64,000 nucleotides of DNA from Methanosarcina barkeri MS (GTDB lineage: Archaea; Halobacteriota; Methanosarcinia; Methanosarcinales; Methanosarcinaceae), in assembly GCF_000970025.1 (NCBI RefSeq), contig NZ_CP009528.1, positions 2,033,168-2,097,167 of the forward strand. Reading direction: 5' to 3'. The first letter of the stretch is position 1. Every line of letters begins with the position of its first letter. Made by a program: the position numbers and the translations under genes. Under the pieces are notes generated by a model, which ran no database searches, was not told the DNA's origin, and saw nothing but the letters and a program-made list of their open reading frames with translations. Of this stretch, positions 12,799 to 43,080 are shown in pieces.

Positions 12799-13324
12799 AT
12801 TACCCCACTCAAACAGCGAAATTACATACAAAGTAAAAATAATAATAAAATTATCACTGGTTAATCCATCTATTCTTTGCATCCTTTATTAATAAATCGT
12901 CCAGGGATGAATTTTATATTAGAGTTGCGGCTGAAAATCAGTTAAGAATTATTTGATTGCAAGTTTGAGACTTGAGACTTGAGACTTGAGACTTTGAGAC
13001 GCTGCCGAAGTTGGAAAGTCGGAGTAGAGGGGTAAATTAAAATCTATCACATAGAAAATTGCTTGGGTAGCTGAACTATCATCGAACAGCTATGCTTGGG
13101 GAGTAATAACTTCGGATAGACTGCATTGGGGCATGCAGTAAATGAGTTCAACTACTCTGGTTTCTTCTTACAGAACTATTTTTAAACTTTTTTTAAATTT
13201 TTATTAAATTCTTTTTAAACTCATTTTAAACTGTATCTAAACTATATTGAATTATTTGCAAAATATTTTTGTGAACTTTTATCGATTGGCATCGTTTATT
13301 GTGAAATTTTGTTATAAGTAAAAT
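12799..13324. other. Intergenic region with 7-bp tandem repeats
   Basis: About 525 bases with no supportable gene. Contains about five tandem copies of ttgagac at 12965-13000 and a run of ttttta/aaactt-type sequence near 13175-13260 before the xth stop. Confidence 0.6.
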
Positions 13325-39159: not shown

Positions 39160-40026
39160 ATGGAAATTGAAATTAAAGATCTTTCAAAAGCATACAGGCC
39201 GGAAAAACCCGTACTTTCAGGAATCAATCTCGAGTTTCGACCTCCTTCTATTGTTGGGCTAATAGGACCAAATGGGGCAGGGAAGACTACTTTTATGAAA
39301 ATCCTTGTCCGTCAGATCCTTGCATCGACCGGGTCAATAAAAATTGACGGGACGGACATAAGCAAAAGCGAGAACGACCTTAAGAATCATCTTGGGTACC
39401 TGCCCCAGGAATTTGGCCTTTATGAAGAACTGACCGTATACCAGTTCCTGGATTATATGGCGCTTTTAAAAGGTCTGGGTCTTGAAAAAGAAAAAAGGAT
39501 AAAAAATTGCATAGAAAAAACCGGGCTCTCCGAAAAGAAAAATTCCAGAATAAGGACTCTTTCAGGGGGGCAAAAGCAAAGAGTTGGAATTGCACAGGCG
39601 CTTTTGAATGATCCCGAACTTTTGATTGTTGACGAGCCTACTGTTGGGCTTGACCCGGCTGAAAGGGTAAGATTTCGAAACCTTCTGGCCGAAAATGCGA
39701 ACCACAGGCTTGTGCTTCTCTCAACTCACATTATTGAAGACGTGGAATCGATTTGCAACCGGCTAATTGTCCTGTACAGGGGTGAAATCCTTTTTGACGG
39801 AAACCCTGTAGAACTGATTAAAAAGGCTGCAGGGCATGTCGGTGTGCTCGACTCTGACTGTGAAGCTGGCCCTGATATTGAAACGGACTGTATAGTGACC
39901 TCAAGGCTTATCACAGAAACCGGAGCCCAGTATAGAATTGTAGGAGATAAGCTTCCTTCCGGCATAAAACCCGTAATCCCTTCGCTTGAAGATGCTTATA
40001 TGTATTTGATTACACAGAGCGGATGA
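39160..40026 (+). CDS. ABC transporter ATP-binding protein
   Basis: A 288-residue ATPase with Walker A GPNGAGKTTF, Q-loop LPQEFGLY, signature LSGGQKQRVG, Walker B LLIVDEPTVGLDP and H-loop LSTHI. The C-terminal ~80 residues are an extra domain typical of export ATPases. Start ATG 39160 follows GGTG; the frame is open from 39088 but that extension is not ABC-like. It overlaps or abuts the following membrane gene and forms an ABC-2 exporter with the next two genes. Confidence 0.93.
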   Translation: MEIEIKDLSKAYRPEKPVLSGINLEFRPPSIVGLIGPNGAGKTTFMKILVRQILASTGSIKIDGTDISKSENDLKNHLGYLPQEFGLYEELTVYQFLDYMALLKGLGLEKEKRIKNCIEKTGLSEKKNSRIRTLSGGQKQRVGIAQALLNDPELLIVDEPTVGLDPAERVRFRNLLAENANHRLVLLSTHIIEDVESICNRLIVLYRGEILFDGNPVELIKKAAGHVGVLDSDCEAGPDIETDCIVTSRLITETGAQYRIVGDKLPSGIKPVIPSLEDAYMYLITQSG

Positions 40027-40037
40027 GAGGGTGTAAA

Positions 40038-42314
40038 ATGGCAAATCGAATTCCTTTTTTGTCAGGCTTCTCCTTTCTTTTCAATGAAATCAGGCTGATT
40101 TCCAGATCAAAGCTGGCACTGATGTCCATATTCCTGACTGTCCTGGCTACAGTACTGGGGCTGAAAGCTATCGATTATACGAATGAGCGTAGTCTGGTGG
40201 GGCTTGCAAAAACCTCTTTTACCGTAGCTCTCGGACCTGCACAATACGCAGCAATAGCCGGTTCCCTGCTCTTTGCAGTGCTGACGCTTATGCTGCTGAG
40301 CAAGGACCACCGACATAACAGCACGAGCCTTTTGAACACATCCTGTAATTATTCTTAGCTGCTGGTATTCCGTACGGCAGCAATCCTCTCCATCGGGATT
40401 TTTACAGTAGTGCTGGGGGGAATTGCCTTATATGCAGTCCAGGTATTTGTCCTGAAAATTACCTTTGATCCTGTAGTTTCTCTGTCCAGTCTGCTAGTAA
40501 TTACGCTTGCAGGAATCTTTTTTACAGTCCTGATCTGCAGTGGACTTTACCTGATTACGGAAAACCTGGATATCTCTTTTCTTGCATACTGTATTCTTTT
40601 TTTCATGAGTATAGGTAGCTCAAATTACCTGTTAAAATGGGTTCAGACTTCGGCGGTGATGTATTCTGACTTCGGAGGAATCCTCCCGGTTTTTAAGTTT
40701 GTTCTCTACAACCGTCTTCTCTGGACTTTTGTTTCCACCGGGATTTTTACCGTCGGGCTGCTGTGCAGAAGACGATATGAATTAAATTTGAGTTTGTCTT
40801 TGAAGCTCAATGCAAAGCAGCTCTGGATTCCTGTTCTGGTCCTGCTGCTTCTGGGCGCTTCTCTTTTTGTCTATATCAATGAACCTTATATTAACCGAAA
40901 TGACAGTGTATTCAAAACCGAACTTAAGGCAAATGAAAATGTAAAACTAACTCATGTTTCCTCGAATGTTCAGTTCTTTCCTGTAAACCAGAGCCTTTCA
41001 GCCAGGGTACTCTATGAATTTGAAAAAGAATCGGGCACTGAATACATTGATTTTATCACAAATGCAGGAATTCATATAAAAAAACTTACTGTTGATGGAG
41101 TTGAGGCTCCCAATTCCTTAAAGAGGATAAAAGGAACGGACAGGGTACGTTTGGAAGTCCCTGCCGAATCAAGGAACGTTACCATAGATATTAGCTACGC
41201 AGGTAAACTCAAATATCCTTCTTCAATCGGCTTTCCCGGTTATATCTCAGAGGAGAGTATATACCTGCTGGAAAACTCACACTGGATTTTCGAACCTCTG
41301 ACCGGTTCACAAGATATGATAGAGATAAAGGGTTCTGTCACGGCTCCGAAGAACCTGGTAATGGTCGTTCCCGGGGAATTAACAGGAGTTCTGGAAGAAC
41401 ACGGCCGAAAAACCTGGGAATACAGTGCCCTTTCCAATGATTTTTCACCCGGAGTCTTTGCAGGGAACTATGAAGTAAAAAAGATGCTGGCTGGCAGTAC
41501 TGAGATCGAGTTATATTACAGTCCGAAACACAGGGCGTATATAGAAACCCTTGGGATTGAAAACTATTTAATAAATATTGTTTCCTATTATGAAAAAAAT
41601 ATAGGCAGCTATCCGTATCAGGAATACCCCTTAAAAATAGTAGAAAGTTCTATCTACAAGACCGGCGGACATTCAACCCTGAATATCGTAACGGTTTCAG
41701 AATATGTGTTTAACAGAGAACTGGACAGGGAAATTGGAGGAGATTCAGATAACTTTTCCTCTGATCTCACATCTCTTAAAGACATCACCTTTGTTGGGGA
41801 TATGGACCTGTTAGCCCATGAAATCGCTCATCAGTGGTGGGGAACAGGAGTTTTCGTGAAGGAAAATCCCCCCTGGTCTTCGGAAGGGCTTGCAGATTAC
41901 CTGGCCTACAAATACGTAACAGAAGAGTTTGGTTCCTATGCATCAGCATATATCCCTGCAATGTGGAAAGGCGGAGTAGATTCCATGGAAAACAGTTATT
42001 ACTATGCGAATCCGAAAATGCTGGAAAACCTGCCTGAGAAACAGAGACAAAAGTATGAAATGGAGACTCGAAAAATAGAACTTTATTCCCAGATGCCTAT
42101 GCTCTTGCTGAGAGCCGAAGAGCTGCTTGGGGAAGAGTCATTTTTTACGAAGTTATCGGATATTTATACGGATTACAGGTTTAAATCCCTTTCTTATGAG
42201 GAATTCATGCCTTCAATAGGGCTGAGCGAAGCCGAGCTTGATAAGGACCCGGTAAAGGGGAAAGAAACGGGGACGGAAGAAACAGCAGAAGGGGAGGCGG
42301 TTTTCGATGAATAA
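40038..42314 (+). CDS. ABC-2 permease / M1-family peptidase fusion with an in-frame TAG (pyrrolysine or nonsense)
   Basis: One continuous frame of 759 codons including stop, interrupted only by TAG at 40356-40358 (residue 107). Before it are two membrane helices; after it several more helices (to about residue 290), then an extracytoplasmic M1 metallopeptidase-like domain with HEIAH (594-598) and the third zinc ligand E616 in WSSEGLADY, exact M1 spacing. Bacterial permease/M1 fusions have this layout. In Methanosarcina UAG can encode pyrrolysine. The codon lies in NTSCNYS-X-LLVFRTAA between helices. A hairpin begins at the G of the TAG (40358-40381). No in-frame start with a Shine-Dalgarno follows; the first candidate is GTG 40410. 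Either UAG is read through or the protein is split and broken. GAGGGTG precedes ATG 40038; ATG 40023 is an alternative. Confidence 0.8.
40358..40381 (+). promoter_or_regulatory. Hairpin immediately 3' of the in-frame TAG
   Basis: GCTGC (40358-40362) pairs with GCAGC (40377-40381), followed by a T-G pair, a bulged G and GTA/TAC (40365-40367 with 40373-40375), closing a five-base loop. The position right after a UAG resembles the PYLIS-type structures proposed near pyrrolysine codons. Could be chance. Confidence 0.4.
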
Positions 42315-43080
42315 GCCCTCAACAAATAATTTCCCTAACAATAATTTCCCTAACCTGTTGAGAGTCTTGAAATATGAAGTTTTGAGGCTGGCATATAATA
42401 AAAAATATTTTTACATGGTCCTCATCGAGTCGCTATTTGCCTGTTACATCCTGATGAATTTTGTATTCGGGGGAAAAGACGGTACGGCTCCTTTCTCTAA
42501 ATGGACGTATTCGGAATTTCTCTCCCTTATAGGGCCACTTTTATCAGTCATCCTTGTTCTTTTCTGCATGTCCGTCTTTTCGGAAAAGGAAGTTGCGGTT
42601 CGAAATATCATATTTTCTACCCCGCTTTCCGAACCAAAATATTATCTGCTAAAAGCCTCGGCAATCACGGCTGTTTTCGTACTTGCTGCTTCTTTACCGA
42701 TTTTATTGAGCTTTGCGTATTATGCCCATTACTTTAATTTCTACGCTTATGCTGAGTTCACGCTTCCCTTACTGTTATTTCTGTTGCCTTCCCAGATCTT
42801 TGTACTGGGGCTTGCCCTGGCGGTCGGGAGATTCCATTCCAGACTGCTTTACCCTCTTTTGCCTCTTGTGCTGTTTCTGGGATTTTTTAATCCGAGGCTC
42901 CCTGCGTGGTTTGATCTTTTTGGGAATAATTTCCTTTCGTGGCCCCTACGCTGGTATTTGGGAGTCATGGAGGGTCCAATACCCTATATTCTGCCCGATG
43001 ATTTCCTCTACAGCAGATTGGTTTTCATATTTATGGGCGTCGTTATGTTTGCATTTGCCTGTAGAAGGTCTAAAACCTGA
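42307..43080 (+). CDS. ABC-2 type permease subunit
   Basis: A 257-residue membrane protein with six predicted helices (near 37-55, 70-90, 115-140, 148-170, 178-197 and 236-255). The cytoplasmic stretch SEKEVAVRNIIFSTPLSEPK between helices 2 and 3 is typical of ABC-2 exporters. It overlaps the preceding gene by eight bases. With the ATPase (39160) and the permease/peptidase fusion it forms one operon. The Asn-rich N-terminus (NNFPNNNFPN) comes from a small in-frame duplication. Confidence 0.85.
   Translation: MNKPSTNNFPNNNFPNLLRVLKYEVLRLAYNKKYFYMVLIESLFACYILMNFVFGGKDGTAPFSKWTYSEFLSLIGPLLSVILVLFCMSVFSEKEVAVRNIIFSTPLSEPKYYLLKASAITAVFVLAASLPILLSFAYYAHYFNFYAYAEFTLPLLLFLLPSQIFVLGLALAVGRFHSRLLYPLLPLVLFLGFFNPRLPAWFDLFGNNFLSWPLRWYLGVMEGPIPYILPDDFLYSRLVFIFMGVVMFAFACRRSKT

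Follow-up and report, generated by a model that had tools for sequence, protein, structure and literature searches.

An in-frame TAG in an ABC permease/M1 peptidase gene of Methanosarcina barkeri MS: probably a recent, leaky amber mutation rather than a dedicated pyrrolysine site

Introduction

UAG is both a stop and a sense codon in Methanosarcina (PMC2933860; PMC3639795). What, then, does a single in-frame TAG mean when it is found in an otherwise open gene of such an organism: a pyrrolysine protein, or a gene hit by a nonsense mutation? The question is raised by an ABC permease/M1 peptidase gene in the window, by which we mean the whole 64,000-nucleotide stretch of Methanosarcina barkeri MS analysed here. 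The original prediction, made from the letters of this stretch, proposed a candidate pyrrolysine (Pyl) site and named a recent nonsense mutation as the main alternative.

Results

An intact gene apart from one TAG

Translation of the region from 40038 to 42314 yielded 758 codons plus the stop, with the TAG at codon 107 as the single internal stop, which agrees with the frame as it had been described. The eight-base overlap claimed for the gene and its downstream neighbour was also found, between its terminal TAA and the ATG at 42307. The features of the locus are the following.

39160 to 40026, plus strand: partner ABC ATPase gene, probable ATG at 39160, 3´ end 11 bases upstream of the permease ATG
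40027 to 40033, plus strand: Shine-Dalgarno-like GAGGGTG of the full-length gene, read from the sequence, serving the ATG at 40038
40038 to 42314, plus strand: ABC-2-type permease/M1 metallopeptidase fusion gene with one TAG interruption (Peptidase_M1, PF01433, E 1.5e-8)
40356 to 40358, plus strand: TAG, codon 107; both near orthologues have CAG (Gln), thus a C-to-T transition
40358 to 40381, plus strand: predicted 7-bp hairpin whose first base is the G of the TAG; also predicted for the CAG relative G004
40410 to 42314, plus strand: possible re-initiation ORF from a GTG, 634 aa, without a convincing Shine-Dalgarno sequence
41817 to 41831, plus strand: HEIAH zinc-binding motif, residues 594-598 (sequence motif)
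41883 to 41885, plus strand: third zinc ligand, Glu616, spacing X17 (sequence motif)
42307 to 43080, plus strand: second permease gene, intact, with a private in-frame 15-bp tandem duplication (42325-42339 / 42340-42354)

The gene has the hallmarks of the M1 family, an HEXXH motif, a distal Glu and the match to PF01433 (E 1.5e-8), and the best profile and fold matches of its C-terminal half are Tricorn F3 and ERAP-type enzymes. The zinc ligands HEIAH and E616 are present as proposed; their spacing had been called exactly that of M1 and is slightly off, since the canonical spacing is HEXXH-X18-E and here it is X17, in a family in which the spacing varies. In the predicted model (pLDDT 80), the N-terminal half forms a multi-helix permease module; the model places residue 107 at the start of the third long helix, right behind a short cytoplasmic helix/coupling loop. 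In layout the gene resembles the ABC transporter permease/M1 family aminopeptidases, in which a multi-helix permease is followed by an M1 domain and the gene lies beside an ABC ATPase and a second permease; it differs from them in having HEXXH-X17-E instead of X18. The full-length protein had no match to any curated full-length family.

Over 2.3 kb no further lesion was found in the gene or its neighbours: there were no frameshifts, extra stops or lost catalytic residues as expected of a pseudogene, and HEIAH and E616 are kept.

Downstream of the TAG, the GTG at 40410 lies 17 codons past the stop and opens 634 codons, and the gene might thus be expressed in two pieces, with a stub made from the ATG at 40038 and re-initiation at this GTG yielding a shortened permease/peptidase. 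We consider this extremely improbable, since no Shine-Dalgarno sequence precedes the GTG, no relative is split, and the product would lack two helices and the coupling loop according to the predicted model. The missing Shine-Dalgarno sequence and the loss of two helices had been anticipated, and both were borne out by the sequence and the model, respectively.

Origin of the TAG

The permease/M1 gene was present in three of 31 Methanosarcina genomes, this one included. The two other orthologues (in G004 and G010) are 96% and 92% identical and unbroken, and both have CAG (Gln) at codon 107. Farther out, the codon is CGG in the copies of G151 and in locus L006, CAG in a Halothermothrix MAG and AAG in Clostridium; residue 107 is Gln, Arg or Lys among the closer homologues. 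A TAG at codon 107 was found in none of the orthologues from Pyl-decoding relatives (G004 and G010). CAG in both genus orthologues together with the outgroup codons shows that Gln/CAG is ancestral within the genus and that one C-to-T change gave the TAG. Judged from this alignment, the TAG is a private single C-to-T transition on the lineage to this strain, and it looks recent as measured against species-level relatives only. Aligning close homologues, the check proposed for the pyrrolysine site, thus returned a sense codon in both near orthologues, and the nonsense mutation named as its alternative is recorded in the DNA as CAG to TAG. Of the observations that were to speak against the site, the sense codon in orthologues was made; other inactivating changes and an absence of pyl genes were not. 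The orthologues without the stop make clear that the frame is coding on both sides of the TAG, and a single in-frame TAG flanked by conserved coding sequence is the pattern expected of a Pyl gene.

Synteny with G004 extends over 46 of 400 kb that are collinear. The 15-bp duplication (42325-42354), placed where the second permease gene begins, repeats NNFPN and is missing in G004 and G010. In a genome of a different Methanosarcinales family (L133 1423-1749, G133:C5), the permease gene survives only as a remnant: homology runs to about residue 105, and the rest is lost. L006 (MAXL01000180.1), a contig assigned to a Desulfobacterales bin, contains the permease/M1 gene with its flanks, and over 3.6 kb its DNA is 78% identical to the window; its closeness to the archaeal copies in G151 points to mis-binning or recent transfer.

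As the difference is a single base, it could be an error of sequencing or assembly, or the mutation could have become fixed in the sequenced culture alone. The genome looks finished, however (4.57 Mb in two contigs, 99.9% complete), and the flanking private substitutions are ordinary. Substitution errors are less common than indel errors, and the TAG is a substitution. We regard this explanation as very improbable.

Selection on the part of the gene downstream of the TAG was estimated from branch counts over codons 108-758, with G010 as outgroup and the window branch compared with the G004 branch. The counts are small, with 19 nonsynonymous and 19 synonymous changes on the window branch and 14 and 21 on the G004 branch. 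Omega on the window branch, again from small counts, is about 0.36-0.47 and below 1 (p 0.002-0.016, depending on the transition bias); at about 0.4 versus 0.28 on the sister branch, there is no significant difference (Fisher p 0.48). By these counts, the gene has been constrained for most of the window branch, and this fits a young TAG as well as a tolerated TAG with its product in use.

Pyrrolysine decoding and recoding signals

The genome encodes a tRNA-Pyl with a CUA anticodon, a PylS match of 408 bits and PylB/C/D-like frames (assigned by position and content), and each of its two mtmB genes contains one in-frame TAG. Together these genes show that UAG can be read as pyrrolysine in this host. 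A search for pyl genes had been suggested and was thus successful, and the general claim that Methanosarcina decodes UAG as pyrrolysine is in line with this decoding kit and with the documented generic read-through of UAG (PMC2933860). In M. acetivorans, an amber reporter gave 20-30% full-length product with Pyl (PMC2933860), a figure that stems from another species and other genes and varies with context. The pylB gene of this strain seems to end in TAG just 5´ of pylC (L089, about 12844-12848), whereas TAA is given for M. barkeri pylB in PMC2933860. Over 82% of the query, the plasmid of this strain matches that of M. barkeri 227 with 100% identity.

A PYLIS element was not detected at the permease TAG by Rfam matching, while the positive control, mtmB of the same genome, scored 109 bits. 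PYLIS is not essential to Pyl insertion (PMC2933860), and its absence is therefore not decisive, yet the structural argument for the site falls. The hairpin said to start at the G of the TAG is indeed predicted; it is weak (z -1.2 for a 100-nt fold against shuffles, compared with -1.65 in G004) and independent of the TAG. Since the CAG relative G004 has an identical hairpin, it is not specific to recoding. With no PYLIS match and a hairpin predicted equally with CAG, we rejected the idea that pyrrolysine is backed here by a recoding signal.

Nonsense codons elsewhere in the genome

Interrupted genes were surveyed in 1.2 of the 4.57 Mb by rough by-eye curation, and four cases were checked against relatives. 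In this 1.2 Mb, TAG terminates 3.6% of the long ORFs (20/559). Frames in which a single stop is flanked by coding sequence on either side turned out to be the known Pyl genes MtbB and MttB, ordinary adjacent genes sharing a frame (FpoM/FpoN-like and NifS/NifU-like, among others) or genuine interruptions. Counted by hand and with the methylamine methyltransferases left out, there were about four TAG and about six TAA/TGA interruptions, the TAG cases being the permease, a protein-L-isoaspartate O-methyltransferase (PCMT), an IS66-type transposase and a SerRS2 pseudogene. For the codons of the permease/M1 gene, one-step mutation is expected to give 40% TAG at a transition bias near 4 (the bias taken from the branch counts). 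The observed ratio, roughly curated as it is, matches this expectation, and an excess of TAG as a sign of tolerance was thus rejected.

A fasciclin-domain lipoprotein-like gene (G000:C2:2117180-2117935, minus strand; L182) is otherwise open and has a private GAA-to-TAA change inside the Pfam domain; the codon is GAA in relatives, and TAA cannot be rescued by pyrrolysine. A Mutator-type transposase has a real TAA/TGA interruption as well. In the methanogen-type SerRS (SerRS2) gene (G000:C2:3135920-3136216, minus strand; L206), a CAG-to-TAG change at codon 44 is accompanied by frameshifts, and four of four relatives checked have CAG in an open frame. As private TAA/TGA stops occur in otherwise open genes of the same genome, one internal TAG lies within the background: private nonsense codons are part of this genome, with TAG at about its mutational share.

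Two further interrupted frames were seen. In the IS66-like transposase (G000:C2:344470, minus strand; L143), one TAG lies in frame; conserved in-frame amber codons have been reported for transposases of M. acetivorans and M. mazei (PMC2933860). A secreted-looking frame of 499 codons (G000:C2:2227114, plus strand; L109) without a Pfam match has a TGA at codon 42, probably a nonsense mutation.

Against this background, the permease TAG might simply have ended translation with negligible read-through, so that the 3´ part is by now a very young pseudogene. This would fit a private TAG without a stimulating element in a gene that is dispensable in the genus (three of 31 genomes), the comparable TAA/TGA interruptions nearby, and the slightly higher, not significantly different, number of amino-acid changes on the window branch than on its sister. 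However, the host generally reads UAG as Pyl (PMC2933860), no second lesion is found within 2.3 kb and the whole branch is still constrained. We therefore consider a dead gene unlikely, if worth keeping in mind.

A conserved TAG in the same genome

The PCMT gene (G000:C2:550995-551735, plus strand; L176) lies outside the window and has an in-frame TAG at codon 170. Counting this one, 11 Methanosarcina species share the TAG at exactly this position; in others the codon specifies Lys, Arg, Ser, Glu, Gly or Tyr. Past codon 170, dN is far below dS (for example 0.054 versus 0.73 for G000 versus G012), indicating purifying selection. PCMT of M. barkeri was predicted as a Pyl protein in 2005 (PMC1242214, Table 2), and from these comparisons it is a strong candidate for a genuine pyrrolysine-containing protein that does not belong to methylamine metabolism. 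Its pattern is, as far as alignments can tell, what a long-kept, translated TAG looks like. Like the permease gene, PCMT is a non-methylamine gene with one in-frame TAG and otherwise intact; it differs in that its TAG is common to 11 species and followed by purifying selection, whereas the permease TAG is private.

PCMT shows that a TAG can be kept for a long time in an ordinary enzyme. A selected site in the permease would mean that Pyl107 came to serve function or regulation, for instance by limiting the full-length transporter to times when Pyl is plentiful, as in methylamine growth; the complete Pyl machinery would agree with it, and so would a position that is compatible with Gln, Arg or Lys and forms the cytoplasmic end of its membrane helix. 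Yet no relative has the TAG, PYLIS is missing, the hairpin is common to a CAG relative and TAG is not clearly in excess over other nonsense codons in the 1.2 Mb surveyed. A dedicated site is thus improbable.

Discussion

The explanation we favour, and consider probable, is a recent, strain-private CAG-to-TAG mutation (Gln107 to amber) that is leaky via pyrrolysine and is not a dedicated Pyl site. The mutation and its direction, the intact remainder of the gene and the Pyl machinery of the host are observed; for the extent of read-through we draw an analogy with other genes in another species, and the tolerance of Pyl and the near-neutral effect are inferred. The change would have struck a working ABC permease/M1 peptidase gene in this M. 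barkeri strain. Most ribosomes would stop and release a stub of 106 residues with two membrane helices, and a minority would insert pyrrolysine and complete a protein of 758 residues with Pyl107. The stop may be leaky because the cell makes Pyl-tRNA(CUA), and Pyl107 is likely tolerated because the position is Gln, Arg or Lys in relatives and lies at the start of the third helix, behind the cytoplasmic coupling loop. The allele would be neutral or slightly harmful, its effect softened by general amber suppression.

This is similar to the situation of Thg1 in M. acetivorans, which gained its Pyl codon neutrally according to Heinemann et al. 2009, as cited in PMC2933860 and PMC3639795. There, too, an ordinary gene has an in-frame amber codon in one species, relatives have a sense codon and Pyl is not needed; Pyl insertion into Thg1 was reported from experiments, whereas insertion at codon 107 of the permease is predicted. 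The methylamine methyltransferase genes (MtmB/MtbB/MttB) of the same genome likewise have an in-frame TAG in an otherwise open frame. In them, however, isozymes and species alike retain the TAG, Pyl has a catalytic role and, in mtmB, a PYLIS is present; none of this applies to the permease. Of the case made for a Pyl site, the decoding kit, the intact gene and the Gln/Arg/Lys position thus stand, and TAG conservation, PYLIS and a TAG-dependent hairpin do not.

It might be that Pyl107 is made in real amounts, so that the transporter-peptidase would depend on the Pyl supply and an ABC exporter/peptidase would be linked to methylamine growth; we think this distinctly unlikely. If true, a membrane protein would here be seen at the first step of newly acquiring, in nature, a codon for the 22nd amino acid. 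The locus also provides a clean test case for the fate of nonsense mutations where UAG is half-read as an amino acid. One genome contains a permease TAG that is CAG in close relatives, a TAA-interrupted gene, a decayed TAG gene and a PCMT TAG found in 11 species. Where a genome decodes Pyl, a TAG in frame is thus not enough to indicate a pyrrolysine protein; the useful filter is conservation across species.
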